Shown here: in pieces, positions 1 through 22,262 of the stretch
Layout of the letters: every line of letters begins with the position of its first letter
Numbering within the stretch: the first letter of the stretch is position 1
Virus record (IMG/VR): IMGVR_UViG_3300021373_001317
Coordinates: 1 to 22,262 of that record
Source: a virus
Length of the DNA stretch: 22,262 nt
Reading direction: 5' to 3' (one strand)
The notes under the pieces: model-generated
Told to the model about the DNA's origin: nothing
The model's input: the letters and a program-made list of their open reading frames with translations, nothing else
Database searches by the model: none
Made by a program: the position numbers and the translations under genes

Positions 1-569
1 GTGTTCCACCATCATATATCGGTGGACAAGAAGACGGCGGCTCATCATACAATGATGGTCGTGTTGGCACAGCAATGATTCAAGAATTCCGCTTCACTAA
101 ATTCTGTGAAAGACTACAAGCACTTATCGTAGAAGAACTTGACCGTGAATTTAAGATGTTCTTGAAACATCGTGGGGTTCAAGTAGAAAGTTCACTATTC
201 TCACTTAACTTTAACGTTCCGCAAAATTTTGGTAAGTTCCGTCAAGCAGAAGTAGATCAAGTAGCAATGAATGTGTTCTCAACAGTAGCAGATGTTCCTT
301 ACATGAGTAAGCGTTTTGCACTACAGCGTTTCTTAGGTCTTTCAGAAGATGAAATCATTGAAAATGAAAAGCAATGGCGTGAAGAAAATGGTCAAGATGA
401 TGCACTAGCACCAGCAGACGATACACTGAAAGGTGTAGGTGCAGCACCTAGCCCAGAAGGCTTCGGCGGCGATGATGATTTTGACTTTGATGACACTGAT
501 ATGGATGATACAGAAGATGGATCACCAATCTCAGGAGCAGAAAACGCTGAAAATGACGAAGAAGTATAA
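1..569 (+). CDS. 20: Portal vertex protein gp20, C-terminal part (5' end outside window)
   Basis: The reading frame is open from the first bases of the window (codons start at base 3), so this is the 3' end of a longer gene and the first internal ATG at 75 is not the start. The visible part begins with a Gly/Ser-rich stretch. It continues with the helical tail typical of T4-type portals: a FTKFCERLQ segment, a region ending near NFGKFRQAEV, and a SKRFALQRFLGLSEDEI segment before a Glu-rich helix. The last ~55 residues are a strongly acidic Asp/Glu tail. In T4 the portal forms the dodecameric ring at one capsid vertex, nucleates head assembly and is the DNA channel. The gp67-gp21-gp22-gp23 order downstream supports the call. 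The stop codon lies inside a late promoter box. Confidence 0.85.
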   Translation, partial: VPPSYIGGQEDGGSSYNDGRVGTAMIQEFRFTKFCERLQALIVEELDREFKMFLKHRGVQVESSLFSLNFNVPQNFGKFRQAEVDQVAMNVFSTVADVPYMSKRFALQRFLGLSEDEIIENEKQWREENGQDDALAPADDTLKGVGAAPSPEGFGGDDDFDFDDTDMDDTEDGSPISGAENAENDEEV

Positions 570-14653: not shown

Positions 14654-14661
14654 TATTTATA
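14654..14661 (-). promoter_or_regulatory. Late promoter TATAAATA (minus strand), overlapping the Nudix stop
   Basis: Exact late box on the minus strand. Its bases 3-5 are the TAA stop of the Nudix gene, the same geometry as at 565-572. It lies inside a 6-bp inverted repeat (CACTAT 14646-14651 / ATAGTG 14659-14664). It serves the TTG-started gene at 14634. Confidence 0.7.
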
Positions 14662-15082
14662 GTGTACTGATTATATTTCTAATCAGCTTTAATTTGTTTT
14701 TGTTAAAGAGTGTTCTTCTAGTCCCCGGATGTAATGGCTTTGGAAGATAGCTAGTATGTACCCAACTATAACCTCCGCTTTCTGAATTTAATTTTGGAAT
14801 GAATTCTTTTTCTACTAGTACTACGAATGTATAATAACTAAAGGTTTTATCTCTGGAATGATACTGGTCAAGAGGATAAACTTTTATAATATCTTCTAGT
14901 GGATTCAGATTTATTTCTTCTTTTAATTCTCTTAGTAACCCTTGTGATACATTTTCATCTATTTCAACTTTACCACCAAATAGTCCCCAATTTCTTGGAT
15001 AAGAACTTTCAGTTGAACGCTGTTGTAATAGAATTCGTTTAGTGTCTTTAGCAAGAATACACGCACCTGCTGCCTTTATCAT
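14657..15082 (-). CDS. Nudix hydrolase
   Basis: A 141-residue single-domain Nudix hydrolase. The Nudix box spans residues 37-59: Gly37, five residues, Glu43, seven residues, then REL-KEE (the metal-binding RE..EE core). The usual Gly after EE-x is replaced by Asn. An N-terminal AAGACILAKDTKRILLQQR strand and WGLFGGKVE lead into the box, as in MutT-like proteins. Likely substrates are nucleotide-diphosphate derivatives (oxidised dNTPs, NDP-sugars, dinucleotides or capped RNA); none can be chosen from sequence. Its ATG overlaps the gp15 stop in an ATGA junction and GAAGGTGG upstream gives a ribosome-binding site, so translation is coupled to the neck/tail operon. An accessory enzyme with late timing is unusual. 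Confidence 0.88.
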   Translation of the reverse strand: MIKAAGACILAKDTKRILLQQRSTESSYPRNWGLFGGKVEIDENVSQGLLRELKEEINLNPLEDIIKVYPLDQYHSRDKTFSYYTFVVLVEKEFIPKLNSESGGYSWVHTSYLPKPLHPGTRRTLFNKNKLKLIRNIISTL

Positions 15083-16473
15083 TCGCCACCTTCATCTACT
15101 AGCTCAAGTCTCCAATAACCACCTTCGTATATACCCTGATATGTATCACTCCATGATCCATTTTCAAACTTGAATTGTTGTAGGGTAGTGGTATTTGTCA
15201 CATATGCACGTCTATCAAATTCGCTTGCATCAAAAGATGTTACCCATTCGCTGCCATTATATTCTATAATGTCGTTTTCACCTATATCAACATTAAAATA
15301 GTTTGTGTTATCGTTATCTACCTGTGTTGCGCATAGGTATCTTTGTCCTAGTGCTGGCATTGGGAAATTATTAAATCCGGGTCTTGCGGTATTTGGATTT
15401 ATAATTCTATCAACGGCTGCAATAGTATTCGTTGGTAATGTGTCTCTATCCAATTCAAATGAAAGTAATGTAGGATCATCTGTTGTTGATAACGTACCAA
15501 TAACATCAGCATTCAAGTCTTCTAATTCACCGTGATATTTTAATCTCATACGAGAAACACCATCGTGTAACATACCATAGTTTGATAGAACCTCTTCCCA
15601 AGTTCTTTCATTGTCCCAGTTGCCGTTTTCCAACACTTTAATGAATATATTTCCACCATCTTCATATACGTTTACTGCATAGTTACCCGGTGTTACAACG
15701 ACACTCGACTGTCTTTCTAAATCTCTAAAGAATTCAAATGCATCTGGATCATAATCAAGTGTGTCTAAATCCGTGTATTGATAGATATTATGAATAATAT
15801 TTCTGATTACATTTTGTCTTGTAACTTGTGCTGGTGGGTTAATCCAAATAGGTATCTGAAAAAACAAACTAGCAATATCAATTTGGTCTTCTATGCCAGC
15901 TGGTATGCCACGACTTGTCCACTGAATATCTGTTAACTCAACGGTAGTGATAGTTGTCCAATCGATTGGGTTGTCATTCTGTTGAATTTCTAATGCAGGA
16001 TTGAATAGAACTAGCATTTGTTCCATTAGTTGTAGTTTTTGATCCGTATTACTTGTCCATACATCTACCTGCATGTTAAGCAAGTAAGGGACTGGCATAA
16101 GACGCCCTACGCTATACTTAGGTCCTGTCTCGTTAGTATATGAGCTAGTTTCTGGATTCCAACGTCTTTCATTGACACTTACGCTATCAGTAAAGAATGG
16201 TTCCTGTACTCTTGCTCTATCTGGCTGAACACTTTGTATCCAACATGCAATAAATGGAGCAGAGTTTACAATGTTTTCTGAATTGTTTTTAAGAACAGTA
16301 GCAGCCATACGTGATACATCACCGTAACGTGCTGGAACTCTGATATAATAATCAGATACACCATCGTTCATCTTCTTACCTGTTTTGACAGAAAAGCCAC
16401 TGAACATACGTACAAACTGTAGAACGTATCTTCTTATTTGTTCGTCATAAAAATGTGATTGTTTAACTGTCAT
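15079..16473 (-). CDS. 15: Tail terminator / sheath stabiliser gp15, with C-terminal extension
   Basis: A 464-residue protein. The N-terminal ~235 residues match the T4 gp15 family pattern: QIRRYVLQFVRMFSGFSV near the start, YYIRVPARYGDVSRM (~43-57), then VGRLMPVPYLLNMQVDVWTSN (as VGRLMPVPYLL and NMQVDVWTSN) and QLMEQMLVLFNPAL. In T4, gp15 (272 aa) caps the completed tail and stabilises the sheath before joining the neck. The remaining ~210 residues are an added region with YFNVDIGENDIIEYNGSEWV and FENGSWSDTYQG segments, resembling extensions seen in marine T4-like relatives; function unknown. The start overlaps the gp14 stop (TAATG), so the two are translated together. Confidence 0.85.
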   Translation of the reverse strand: MTVKQSHFYDEQIRRYVLQFVRMFSGFSVKTGKKMNDGVSDYYIRVPARYGDVSRMAATVLKNNSENIVNSAPFIACWIQSVQPDRARVQEPFFTDSVSVNERRWNPETSSYTNETGPKYSVGRLMPVPYLLNMQVDVWTSNTDQKLQLMEQMLVLFNPALEIQQNDNPIDWTTITTVELTDIQWTSRGIPAGIEDQIDIASLFFQIPIWINPPAQVTRQNVIRNIIHNIYQYTDLDTLDYDPDAFEFFRDLERQSSVVVTPGNYAVNVYEDGGNIFIKVLENGNWDNERTWEEVLSNYGMLHDGVSRMRLKYHGELEDLNADVIGTLSTTDDPTLLSFELDRDTLPTNTIAAVDRIINPNTARPGFNNFPMPALGQRYLCATQVDNDNTNYFNVDIGENDIIEYNGSEWVTSFDASEFDRRAYVTNTTTLQQFKFENGSWSDTYQGIYEGGYWRLELVDEGGE

Positions 16474-17471
16474 TATTCATCTACCTTAGGTCTAACTGCT
16501 TTTGAAAGATTGACTTTAGAAGTCACTTCTGTTCCGTCATCAAGTACAACACGTCCATCATTGTTGATAAACTTATGATGCAGAGCATGTCCTACTTCCC
16601 AAGCACCGTCATCGTCTTCAATCTTATACCATTTATTATCACGGTATTGGAATAATCTTGCTGGGTTATAGTCTACACGTAAGAAGTAAGCATCATCATC
16701 AGGTGATTGAGGGAAGCGTGTACCGCTCTCTACAGTAGCATAGTCTACATCATCAGGATGATCTGACTGTTCAGCATATTGTAGATTGTTTGTTCTGTAA
16801 TCGTAATACTTTCCCGGAACGTTTTGTTGCGCTTCTTCTACGATAGCATCATTGATTTGAAGTTCTTTATTGTATGTAGATAAGATATTTTTCAAATCGT
16901 CAGCTTCTTCACCAGTCCCAAAGATATCTGAGTACTCTTGTGTATCTTGTAGTTGCTTACAGCGAATACGCCAAATATGTGGCCACCATCCTGGATCAAA
17001 ACCTTCGCTTGCTTTAGAGCCTTCTTGTACAACCCAATACTGATTAACTGCGGCTGCGTCTTCATCTAGTAGCAAATCATCTCTCATATGAGGAAGTTCA
17101 ATAACATCACCCGTCATAAGTTTACGACCTATACGTTCTACCATGTCGTTAAGATGTACAGTAAAGATGTTTTGATCCGAACCCAAGAACATACCAAACT
17201 GTGACAAGTCAAAGTCTTGGTCACTCACAGTGTAAGCACCACGTAGTTCGTAAACTGTTGTCTCATAACGTCTATCACGATTCTCCATGAATAGCAAGTC
17301 CTGAATAGGAGGGTTTGCTGGGTCATAGTTTGGATCGTTTTCGTCAACTGAACCTATATATTTGTGAACTAGTAGGGCAGTACCACCATGCTCAAAATGA
17401 GCCTTTACCATCTTATCGATGAATTTGTAGTCATTACCTTTACGTGGGTTCCATAAACTTAATCTTGGCAT
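16473..17471 (-). CDS. 14: Neck protein gp14, with C-terminal extension
   Basis: A 332-residue protein matching T4 gp14-type neck proteins over its first ~210 residues: HFEHGGTALLVHKYIGS near residues 29-45, QDLLFMENRDRRYETTVYEL, LSQFGMFLGSDQNIFTVH, then MTGDVIELPHMRDDLLLDED and VNQYWVVQEG. gp14 and gp13 form the collar joining head and tail. The last ~110 residues (FPQSPDDDAYFLRVDYNPAR then LFQYRDNKWYKIED) are an added beta-type region also known in marine phage structural proteins. AAGGA precedes the ATG, and a GATAAATA late box lies 24 bases upstream. It is the first gene of the minus-strand operon gp14-gp15-Nudix. Confidence 0.8.
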   Translation of the reverse strand: MPRLSLWNPRKGNDYKFIDKMVKAHFEHGGTALLVHKYIGSVDENDPNYDPANPPIQDLLFMENRDRRYETTVYELRGAYTVSDQDFDLSQFGMFLGSDQNIFTVHLNDMVERIGRKLMTGDVIELPHMRDDLLLDEDAAAVNQYWVVQEGSKASEGFDPGWWPHIWRIRCKQLQDTQEYSDIFGTGEEADDLKNILSTYNKELQINDAIVEEAQQNVPGKYYDYRTNNLQYAEQSDHPDDVDYATVESGTRFPQSPDDDAYFLRVDYNPARLFQYRDNKWYKIEDDDGAWEVGHALHHKFINNDGRVVLDDGTEVTSKVNLSKAVRPKVDE

Positions 17472-17481
17472 GTTTTTTTCC

Positions 17482-17510
17482 TTGACTTATTACTGTATTT
17501 ATCATATAGT
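17482..17510 (+). promoter_or_regulatory. Sigma70-like early promoter for the 2OG oxygenase
   Basis: TTGACT (17482-17487), 17-base spacer, TATAGT (17505-17510), giving a predicted start near 17517 and a ~19-base leader to the ATG at 17536. The minus-strand late box of gp14 (17496-17503) lies inside the spacer, so the two promoters overlap on opposite strands. Confidence 0.65.
17496..17503 (-). promoter_or_regulatory. Late promoter variant GATAAATA for the gp14-gp15-Nudix operon
   Basis: Minus-strand late box ending 24 bases before the gp14 ATG, within a 64-base divergent intergenic region and overlapping the plus-strand sigma70-like promoter. Confidence 0.7.
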
Positions 17511-17535
17511 TATAATTAACGTACGGAGAAAATAA

Positions 17536-18222
17536 ATGTTAAATGACGGAACAGTAGTGCTACGGGGAGTAATTAACCCAGTAACTATAGCACAATTTAA
17601 ATTGTGGGCGACAAACCCAGAAAGATATCATCGTGGCAATGGTGTAGATGGTAATTATTATAGCGAACACGATGGTAAACGTGAATATGACGTGTGGTGG
17701 ACTACACAACCTCCAAAAGAAATGTGGGTGCCGTTAGTTGTACAACTTCAAGATCCAATCACACATTTGTTCGGACACAAGAACTGGGATATTCATGTAG
17801 TAGATTGTATTACGACCCGTCCAAGTTCCAACAAAATTTACGCACACATTGATACCCCATATCGTTTTCAGGAATTCTCACAGATAGACGAATGCTTGGG
17901 AGTACAGATTATTATTCCGCTAGATGACTTTACGTTAGAGAATGGTGCAACAGCATACTTACCCGGATCGTCTTTAGAAAAGATTGATTACATGGACTTA
18001 GAACTTCATAGAGACTCATATAACATGAGATTGAAAGAAGAAGGACAGCAATTCTTATCAAAGCCTGGTGATGTTTTGATGTATGATGGCCGCACTTTAC
18101 ATTCCACAATGCCAAATAAATCAACAGAATTTCGTTCAGCATTGTTGATTAATGCTCTAAAATCTGATATCATTGACCGTGTCCAAGAACTTGACAAAAA
18201 CACTGATTTCGTCAAAAAGTAG
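17536..18222 (+). CDS. 2-oxoglutarate/Fe(II)-dependent oxygenase (phytanoyl-CoA dioxygenase-like)
   Basis: A 228-residue enzyme with the facial triad and co-substrate residues of the PhyH-like family: His104-Ile-Asp106 in YAHIDTPYR, distal His189 in DGRTLHSTMPN, and Arg200 in EFRSALLINAL to hold 2-oxoglutarate. Between them, GVQIIIPLDDFTLENGATAY (122-141) with LPGSS is the characteristic beta-core. These enzymes hydroxylate small molecules or protein/nucleic-acid side chains using O2 and 2-oxoglutarate; the substrate here is unknown. Marine T4-like phages often carry such genes. GGAG precedes the ATG. It is divergent from gp14 and has a sigma70-like promoter, suggesting early expression. No membrane or signal segment is seen, so it is cytoplasmic. 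Confidence 0.85.
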   Translation: MLNDGTVVLRGVINPVTIAQFKLWATNPERYHRGNGVDGNYYSEHDGKREYDVWWTTQPPKEMWVPLVVQLQDPITHLFGHKNWDIHVVDCITTRPSSNKIYAHIDTPYRFQEFSQIDECLGVQIIIPLDDFTLENGATAYLPGSSLEKIDYMDLELHRDSYNMRLKEEGQQFLSKPGDVLMYDGRTLHSTMPNKSTEFRSALLINALKSDIIDRVQELDKNTDFVKK

Positions 18223-18229
18223 AAAAAAC

Positions 18230-18257
18230 TTGACATTTCTCGTAATTATTGTATTAT
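18230..18257 (+). promoter_or_regulatory. Sigma70-like early promoter for the 423-aa unknown gene
   Basis: TTGACA (18230-18235), 16-base spacer, TATTAT (18252-18257). It starts 8 bases after the oxygenase stop and ~30 bases before a strong AGGAGG site. This is the best host-like promoter in the window and there is no late box here. Confidence 0.75.
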
Positions 18258-18287: not shown

Positions 18288-19559
18288 ATGGCAGTGGCAA
18301 CTAGAAGAAAAATGACAAGAGCAAAAGTGACGAAGAAGCCGACAAGAGCAAGAACGCCAAAATTTGTTGACGAAAAATATACAGGACCAGAACCAGACTG
18401 GACTTATGCGGAAGATATGACCGCAGAAGAATATTACCGTGAACGTTGTCGTACAGGTTTTTATTATAATTATTTCTATACGACAAAAGATGGTAAACCT
18501 TGGGTACTTTCTTGGATGAAAGATAACGGCTATACAAAAGAACAAATTGCTGCGGTGAAAGCAGTACCAGATAGTTGGGTTTCTATTGCAGTAGCAGGTT
18601 ATTGTCGTGCGCTTTCTAAAGGTATGCCTGTTAATCACAAAGGTCTTCCTGAATACCTAGAAACTCTTCCTGGTGTTGGGAGTAAAGCAATGACAGATGC
18701 GGATGCGTATGTTAAAGAAAAACTCGCAGAAGTCATTGAACGTGGCAAGACAATCAAACAAGAAAAAGAAGTAGAAGAAAAGAAAAAAGACATTCCAAGA
18801 CCAAGCATTCAACAGTTGTTGCGTGAAAAAGCAGTTGAAATGGCAAGTGAGATTGATGAATTTGTAGATAAGTTTGATTACAAAACAACAACTCTGAAAT
18901 CTTTTGACCCTCTAAAACTTCTTCGTAAAGTTGAAGCTAAAGGTAACCACGCCAAAACAATCAAATCATTCTATCAGTTAGAGTGGGAAGAATACGATGA
19001 ACTTCTAAACCCACCAAAGCGCATGACAGCAGAAAAGAAAGATGATTATGAACAACTAAAAGAAGGGTATGCACATCTAAAAAAGGCTGAAATCAAAGCG
19101 GCATATCAGATGTATCAAAACATTTTAGATGCATGTGACATGCTTGTACAAGAGGGTAAAGTCAATCGTGCTCCTCGTAAGAAAAAGCCAATGAGTAAAG
19201 ACAAAATTGTTGCTAAGGTCAAATACTGTAAACAAGATACAGCAACTAAGTCAGTGTCTATCAAGCCTATTGATGTACTAGATGCCTCCGCAGTTATGGT
19301 TTATAATGTTAAAACTCGTAAACTTGGTATCTATTATCCAGCAGAGTATCAGAGTTTGACATTCAAAGGAACTACGCTTGTTGGCTTCGATGAAAATAAA
19401 AGTGTAGCAAAAACAATGCGCAAACCTGCTGAACAGGTGTCACAGTTTAAGAAAGTAACGAAGCGTTCTTTACAAAAGACGTTTGATGAAGTGAAAAGTG
19501 TTGAAACAAAAATGAATGGTCGTTTTAATGAACAGACTTTAATTTTAAAGGTTTTCTGA
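18288..19559 (+). CDS. Hypothetical protein with basic N-terminus, probably early
   Basis: A 423-residue soluble protein I do not assign to a named family. Residues 1-25 are extremely Arg/Lys-rich, suggesting nucleic-acid contact. Residues ~40-115 hold an aromatic-rich segment (ERCRTGFYYNYFYTTKDGKP then WVLSWMKDNGYTKEQI). Residues ~123-150 include GLPEYLETLPGVGSKAM, which looks like a helix-hairpin-helix-type LPGVG turn but is a single short match. Residues ~155-300 are helical and charged, and the last ~120 residues look more beta-rich (KLGIYYPAEYQSLTFKGTT). AGGAGG gives a strong ribosome-binding site and a sigma70-like promoter lies upstream. It sits among late genes but appears to be expressed early. 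The stop overlaps a late box for the next gene. Confidence 0.75.
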   Translation: MAVATRRKMTRAKVTKKPTRARTPKFVDEKYTGPEPDWTYAEDMTAEEYYRERCRTGFYYNYFYTTKDGKPWVLSWMKDNGYTKEQIAAVKAVPDSWVSIAVAGYCRALSKGMPVNHKGLPEYLETLPGVGSKAMTDADAYVKEKLAEVIERGKTIKQEKEVEEKKKDIPRPSIQQLLREKAVEMASEIDEFVDKFDYKTTTLKSFDPLKLLRKVEAKGNHAKTIKSFYQLEWEEYDELLNPPKRMTAEKKDDYEQLKEGYAHLKKAEIKAAYQMYQNILDACDMLVQEGKVNRAPRKKKPMSKDKIVAKVKYCKQDTATKSVSIKPIDVLDASAVMVYNVKTRKLGIYYPAEYQSLTFKGTTLVGFDENKSVAKTMRKPAEQVSQFKKVTKRSLQKTFDEVKSVETKMNGRFNEQTLILKVF

Positions 19560-20960: not shown

Positions 20961-21569
20961 ATGGAACATTATACCCCCAAAACAGTAGGCGACAATATAG
21001 CACTTTATATCACAATGCTGCTACGTTGGTTTGCCGATACATTTTTTGCTAAACGATACGGACATCGTGCCGTAGTACTTGAAACTGTAGCAGGTGTTCC
21101 GGGCATGGTAGCTGGTATGTGGAATCACTTACGCAGTTTGCGTAAGATGCAACCAGATGAACGTGGTTGGATAAAGACGCTATTAGAAGAAGCAGAAAAT
21201 GAGCGTATGCATCTTATGATTTTTATTGAGATTGCAAAACCAAATTTGTTTGAGCGTCTACTAATCTTGTTTACTCAGTTTGTATTCTGGCATTTCTATT
21301 TTATTCTTTATGTGTTTTTCCCTAAGGTTGCTCATAGAATGGTAGGTTATTTTGAAGAACAGGCTGTAGTAAGTTATACACAATATTTGGAACAGATTGA
21401 CAGTGGTGTTATTGAAAATATATCTGCGCCGAAGATAGCAATAGACTATTACAACTTATCACCAGATGCAAGACTACGTGATGTAGTAATTGCAGTTAGA
21501 GAAGATGAAAGAGGACACAGTGAAGTTAATCACGGAATGGCTAACACGCTTATTGAAGAAGAAAAGTGA
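20961..21569 (+). CDS. Alternative oxidase (ubiquinol oxidase, non-protonmotive)
   Basis: A 202-residue di-iron membrane-associated quinol oxidase of the AOX family, which passes electrons from quinol to O2 without pumping protons. All expected ligands are visible: Glu41 in LETVAGVPG, Glu81-x-x-His84 in ENERMHLM, Glu132 in YFEEQA, and Glu183-x-x-His186 in EDERGH. Tyr139 in VVSYTQYL matches the catalytic tyrosine. Hydrophobic helices at ~100-120 fit the monotopic membrane surface. It resembles the proteobacterial/mitochondrial type more than plastid PTOX, and lacks an N-terminal targeting extension. No good ribosome-binding site precedes the ATG. In infection it could keep respiration or redox balance running when the cytochrome chain is limiting (inference). 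It is first in a cluster of small genes. Confidence 0.93.
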   Translation: MEHYTPKTVGDNIALYITMLLRWFADTFFAKRYGHRAVVLETVAGVPGMVAGMWNHLRSLRKMQPDERGWIKTLLEEAENERMHLMIFIEIAKPNLFERLLILFTQFVFWHFYFILYVFFPKVAHRMVGYFEEQAVVSYTQYLEQIDSGVIENISAPKIAIDYYNLSPDARLRDVVIAVREDERGHSEVNHGMANTLIEEEK

Positions 21570-21968: not shown

Positions 21969-22262
21969 ATGGAATTTCTACTTAAAGCAATAATCTCAGG
22001 TATACTCGTTGCGAGTGTAAGTATGATAGCACAACGAAGTGCTACTATGGCTGCATTATTAATGGGTATACCTTTTACCGCCTTTCTCGCAATGTTTTTT
22101 ATGTATTTCTCTGGCACAGACGCAGAAACATTTTCTAAGTTTTCTTTCGAAACTATATATTTTGTCTTGACATCCTTAATATTTTTTGTTATATTCGGAT
22201 TAACGATTAGTCATATCGGCTTTTGGTATTCTATGTTATTAGGATCTGCCGTGACTATCATT
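21969..22262 (+). CDS. DUF3147-like membrane protein, cut by the window end
   Basis: An open frame of 98 codons running off the right edge, starting 8 bases after the previous stop. It is strongly hydrophobic with at least three membrane helices (~5-22, ~28-46, ~62-82) and a fourth beginning at the edge. The pattern KAIISGILVASVSMIAQRSA, then a MGIPFTAFLAMFFMYFSGTD segment and a later GFWYSMLLGSAV, matches the small inner-membrane DUF3147 family of proteobacteria. The family has no established function. With the oxidase and the 39-aa protein it makes a membrane-directed gene cluster. Confidence 0.65.
   Translation, partial: MEFLLKAIISGILVASVSMIAQRSATMAALLMGIPFTAFLAMFFMYFSGTDAETFSKFSFETIYFVLTSLIFFVIFGLTISHIGFWYSMLLGSAVTII

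Follow-up and report, generated by a model that had tools for sequence, protein, structure and literature searches.

Late transcription in phage T4 takes place with gp55, gp33, and gp45 at the promoter TATAAATA, which occupies positions -13 to -6 from the start (PMC2988020 and PMC1524935). The late box of the locus analyzed here would lie at the same distance from its predicted start, and relatives of the phage encode a gp55 homologue, the difference from T4 being that the first base of the box is mostly G in the present phages. Certain genes of the T4-like phages RB49, S-PM2, and Syn9 have been described as possessing an early as well as a late promoter, with σ70-type early promoters and NATAAATA late promoters close to each other or overlapping, as at the present locus (PMC2984593). 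In these phages, both promoters serve the same gene, resulting in a middle-like pattern, whereas in our case each promoter serves a gene of its own, the two being on opposite strands. Early and late promoters also compete, at the early-to-late transition, within the short A2c/A2b-A3 control region of phi29 (PMC3100819), but phi29 relies on the host sigma factor with p4 and p6 as repressor or activator, whereas the two promoter classes considered here differ by their sigma factor and no such regulator is apparent in the window. Overlapping divergent promoters, proposed to act as a genetic switch, are likewise found for the conjugation genes of pLS20 (PMC4207663), although this is a case of plasmid regulation with DNA looping and not an early/late pair of a phage. 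We found no description of an opposite-strand interlock of σ70 and gp55 promoters in T4-like phages, in a search that covered parts of these articles and little of the subscription literature. The site is a conserved variant of overlapping promoters that are already known.

The stretch of DNA analyzed, referred to as the window, is a viral fragment of 22 kb; the late sigma factor is known from its relatives and not from the fragment itself. The site is located in a 64-bp gap between two divergent open reading frames starting at 17471 on the minus strand and at 17536 on the plus strand. The former (16473–17471, minus strand) is the first gene of the late operon and codes for a virion structural protein in a gp14-like position (phrog_11591, E=1e-84), about 40% identical to a structural protein of PA5oct that was detected by mass spectrometry. 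It is followed on the same strand by genes for a gp15-like tail sheath stabiliser (15079–16473; PF16724) and, in third position, a Nudix hydrolase (14657–15082; PF00293). Judged by the gp14-like protein, the nearest named relatives belong to the jumbo phages, PA5oct and Atu_ph07 among them (about 40% identity), and the 29-base early/late promoter site recurs across a large marine family of jumbo phages. The plus-strand gene (17536–18222) encodes a 228-residue 2OG/Fe(II) oxygenase of the PhyH family (PF05721, E=1e-16), the sequence of which contains candidate metal and 2OG residues (HID...H...R). The window also harbors, at 20961–21569, a gene for a phage-borne alternative oxidase (AOX; PF01786, E=2e-80), which is a probable auxiliary metabolic gene.

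On the plus strand, the hexamer TTGACT (17482–17487), a 17-nt spacer (17488–17504), and the hexamer TATAGT (17505–17510) make up the predicted early promoter of the oxygenase gene, which conforms to the σ70 type in having TTGACA-like and TATAAT-like hexamers 16 to 18 nt apart. The late box of the gp14-like/gp15/Nudix operon, GATAAATA, is read on the minus strand (17503–17496) and lies entirely within this spacer; it conforms to the T4 late type, for which a (T/N)ATAAATA box is sufficient and a -35 is not needed. The first-pass annotation had described this interlocking of two promoter classes, which is borne out by the sequence and, as detailed below, conserved in related phages. The two promoters share a footprint of 29 bases on opposite strands. 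The predicted early start (17517, plus strand) is 7 nt past the -10 and the predicted late start (17490, minus strand) is 6 nt past the box, so that initiation would be divergent from positions 27 bp apart, with the early -35 falling inside the late transcript, at approximately positions +4 to +9. The base at the late start is a minus-strand A in 57 of 60 loci; that at the early start is an A in 53 of 60 relatives and a T in the window, in which the -10 is also weaker than that of many relatives (TATAAT). The conservation of a purine at both predicted starts counts in favor of a pair of promoters at this site. The oxygenase gene has a Shine-Dalgarno sequence, GGAG, at 17525–17528 on the plus strand, and the first two bases of TTGACT in the window also belong to the Shine-Dalgarno sequence of the gp14-like gene. 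A plus-strand TATAAT at 17511–17516 was considered as an alternative -10 and discarded, being neither associated with a fitting -35 nor conserved.

Taken alone, the plus-strand match to σ70 (10 of 12 positions) is unremarkable. A consensus scan of 9.3 kb revealed 31 promoter-like sites, versus 37.2 ± 6.4 in shuffled sequences, and has no power to tell a single site from chance. Two more strong σ70-type sites are present in the window, TTGACA-16-TATTAT and TTGACA-17-TATATT, at 18230–18257 and 22167–22195; one of them is upstream of a phrog_11903 gene at 18288. The case for the late box is stronger: almost every NATAAATA site of the window is located upstream of a gene, and GATAAATA is enriched in the sense orientation in the 80-nt upstream windows of two related 342-kb genomes (sense to antisense ratios of 31:5 and 37:5).

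Cultivated phages gave no match by DNA similarity or by searches with the oxygenase protein, and no gp14/oxygenase junction was found in any of them. The comparison therefore rests on IMG/VR contigs, in which relatives were gathered by protein similarity, the motif not being used. This provided 65 distinct upstream regions, including 60 distinct gp14-like/oxygenase junctions with a divergent oxygenase gene and enough sequence for a column test, in which changes per site were inferred on the gp14 tree. The late box had undergone no change and was invariant in the 60 junctions. The number of changes per site was 0.67 for the -35 TTGACT (0 to 2 per column), 2.33 for the -10, 4.67 for the spacer outside the late box, and 11.65 for downstream DNA, the median for 39 fourfold sites of gp14 being 11. 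Fourfold sites drawn at random 20,000 times never attained the conservation of either hexamer or of the box. The distance between the -35 and -10 was 17 nt wherever both hexamers were kept, with variable letters in the spacer. Loci selected by the pattern were at gp14 in 101 of 116 cases, and most of the other 15 resemble coding matches. The possibility of a composite promoter repeated throughout the genomes was rejected, since the exact pattern occurs once each in G001, G002, G004, and G005, with a variant in G003. The comparison with relatives is decisive and, on this basis, we consider that the two promoters are real, very likely functional, and that their overlap is strongly conserved.

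It could be objected that only the late promoter works, the conservation of TTGACT being due to its place in the leader of the gp14 mRNA and the TATAAT-like hexamer being a chance AT-rich stretch. In keeping with this objection, TTGACT overlaps the Shine-Dalgarno sequence and leader of gp14 in the window, and an isolated match of 10/12 is no more than chance would yield. However, the -10 is outside the late transcript and yet conserved at the exact spacing, which led us to reject a chance AT-rich stretch. In the clade of the L090–L106 type, the Shine-Dalgarno sequence is located elsewhere (TGGAG or AAGGAG closer to the ATG) and AAGTCAA is nonetheless kept, a motif that is found in no other late leader of the window. 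In addition, the two hexamers decay together: the -35 and -10 have both degenerated in L061/L062 and L092, all three of which have a plus-strand TATAAATA. In PA5oct, in which the upstream gene has the same direction and is not divergent, GATAAATA is present and TTGAC is absent. The retention of AAGTCAA when the Shine-Dalgarno sequence moves, the joint decay of the hexamers, and the absence of TTGAC in PA5oct indicate that the plus-strand promoter is functional, and we regard the activity of the late promoter alone as very improbable. One locus, L020, combines a TTGCAT -35 with an intact -10, and its oxygenase promoter may be weak.

The early and late labels are sound by homology because relatives encode a gp55-type sigma factor and because σ70-type sites precede replication and late-sigma genes. 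The sigma factor was found in two 342-kb relatives with T4 gp55 as the query and was confirmed as phrog_12791; its gene is itself located behind TTGACA-17-TATAAT. In G001, sites of the type TTGACN-16..18-TANNNT precede genes for SSB, a DnaB-type replicative helicase, ligase, exonuclease, GTP cyclohydrolase, and the gp55-like sigma factor, a baseplate-hub gene being an exception. The assignment of the oxygenase promoter to the early class fits this genome-wide distribution, and the gp14-like protein, by its family match, is a virion protein, in line with the late class.

We propose, with a probability of roughly 0.72, that the locus is a divergent early/late gene pair with both promoters on the same DNA, in which timing depends mainly on sigma supply and the overlap results from packing. 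RNA polymerase with the host-type σ70 would start transcription of the oxygenase gene near 17517 on the plus strand; once the gp55-type late sigma factor is made, polymerase carrying it would start the gp14-gp15-Nudix operon on the minus strand, near 17490. With the spacer between the -35 and -10 taken up by the late box, and the early -35 just within the late transcript, binding of one holoenzyme likely excludes the other. This mutual exclusion, which we infer from the geometry and from known polymerase footprints, had been anticipated in the first-pass annotation. The order of expression would be set chiefly by which sigma factor is present. Since late holoenzyme is absent until the late sigma factor is made, the further proposal of that annotation, that early transcription of the oxygenase gene excludes the neck genes, adds nothing. 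By our own arithmetic, two promoters and typical leaders placed side by side need about 94 bp, and the gap is 48 to 64 bp in G001, G002, and the window. The gap is thus too short for both promoters side by side and the overlap is forced. The overlap would have arisen because two promoters, each with its leader, had to fit into about 64 bp, and would then have been maintained by selection acting on each promoter separately.

A rival view is that the overlap was itself selected as a switch, late polymerase occluding and shutting off the early promoter and early polymerase delaying late transcription. The register is invariant in nearly all of the 60 loci, the overlap is kept in a clade with more room between the genes (about 100 bp), and a similar overlap exists at the late-sigma gene, where shut-off would amount to negative feedback. 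The fixed register can, however, be explained by common descent and a separate constraint on each promoter; with a gap too short for both promoters, conservation of the overlap is no proof of a switch. Furthermore, other divergent early/late pairs of the same genomes do not overlap, the promoters being 1 to 45 bp apart where intergenic gaps are 86 to 128 bp, and the two promoters of the late-sigma pair stand apart in G001 and G002. Finally, 24 of the 60 relatives have an additional late promoter ahead of the oxygenase gene, a plus-strand TATAAATA located 21 to 56 nt from the start of the gene and accounted for by three parsimony changes on the tree. Late shut-off of the oxygenase by late polymerase, as originally proposed, is therefore not general. 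The physical early-to-late switch of the first-pass annotation is retained as regards interlock, exclusion, and conservation; that these amount to a dedicated switch is possible in view of the sequences, and in our estimation quite unlikely. A further possibility is that all of these phages express the oxygenase at both early and late times, in the window from a weak plus-strand late box, TATAATTA (17511–17518), which is one mismatch from TATAAATA. The perfect plus-strand boxes of the 24 relatives speak for this reading, which we nonetheless hold to be very unlikely: TATAATTA is not conserved in relatives, columns 17512–17515 changing as often as fourfold sites, and the leader that it would give is short, about 12 nt. 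In our preferred reading of a packed pair ordered by sigma supply, late occupancy would probably also help, in a passive manner, to keep the oxygenase promoter silent in lineages with no second late promoter, such as that of the window. The locus offers a cleanly conserved case in which competition between polymerases could by itself play a part in the passage from early to late expression.

One of the 15 pattern-selected loci outside gp14, L201, is the junction of the late-sigma gene with a virion gene (phrog_12050). Gathering late-sigma relatives by protein provided 63 distinct loci. A minus-strand ATAAATA and the top-scoring predicted promoter of the late-sigma gene overlap in 51 of the 63, an approximate fraction since the promoter was picked by score. 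This overlap of late-sigma and virion-gene promoters is found in distant relatives, the late box and the early promoter being separated in G001 and G002. It differs from the site of the window in that the early promoter is of the extended -10 type and has the box over its -35 position. In 40 of 40 loci picked only for a TGTGCTATTAT-like -10, TATTTATT (minus strand, AATAAATA) is invariant at -23 to -16 from the -10. The interpretation of TATTTATT as a plus-strand promoter element of the late-sigma gene was weakened by analysis of G006, in which the composite occurs once and the distribution of AATAAATA is that of a late box (9 sense versus 2 antisense). The position of the late box over the predicted early promoter in most relatives (L392–L471 and L201) suggests possible negative feedback on the late sigma factor, as the same geometry would let this factor limit its own synthesis. 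More broadly, opposite-strand interlock might be a recurrent, selected device by which polymerase carrying the late sigma factor occludes early promoters at virion-gene junctions, including that of the late-sigma gene. We put this forward tentatively, as rather unlikely; if true, it would provide shut-off of early genes without a repressor and negative feedback on the late sigma factor.

Additional arrangements were observed in the two genomes G001 and G002. A baseplate-hub gene is preceded by TTGACA-17-TATAAT, with an opposite-strand GATAAATA between promoter and gene in both genomes (L240:2978-3058 in G001; L253:7237-7318 in G002). An early-type promoter with a 16-nt spacer and a conserved core, TTGACA-n-CGAATC(A/G)TG-(C/T)TATATT, is repeated about 10 times per genome (L226–L243 in G001; L244–L261 in G002), mostly before small open reading frames, and possibly defines a separate early class. 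In G001, a palindromic late box, TATTTATAAATA (L226:3125-3136), reads as TATAAATA on both strands between two divergent open reading frames and is a candidate bidirectional late promoter.
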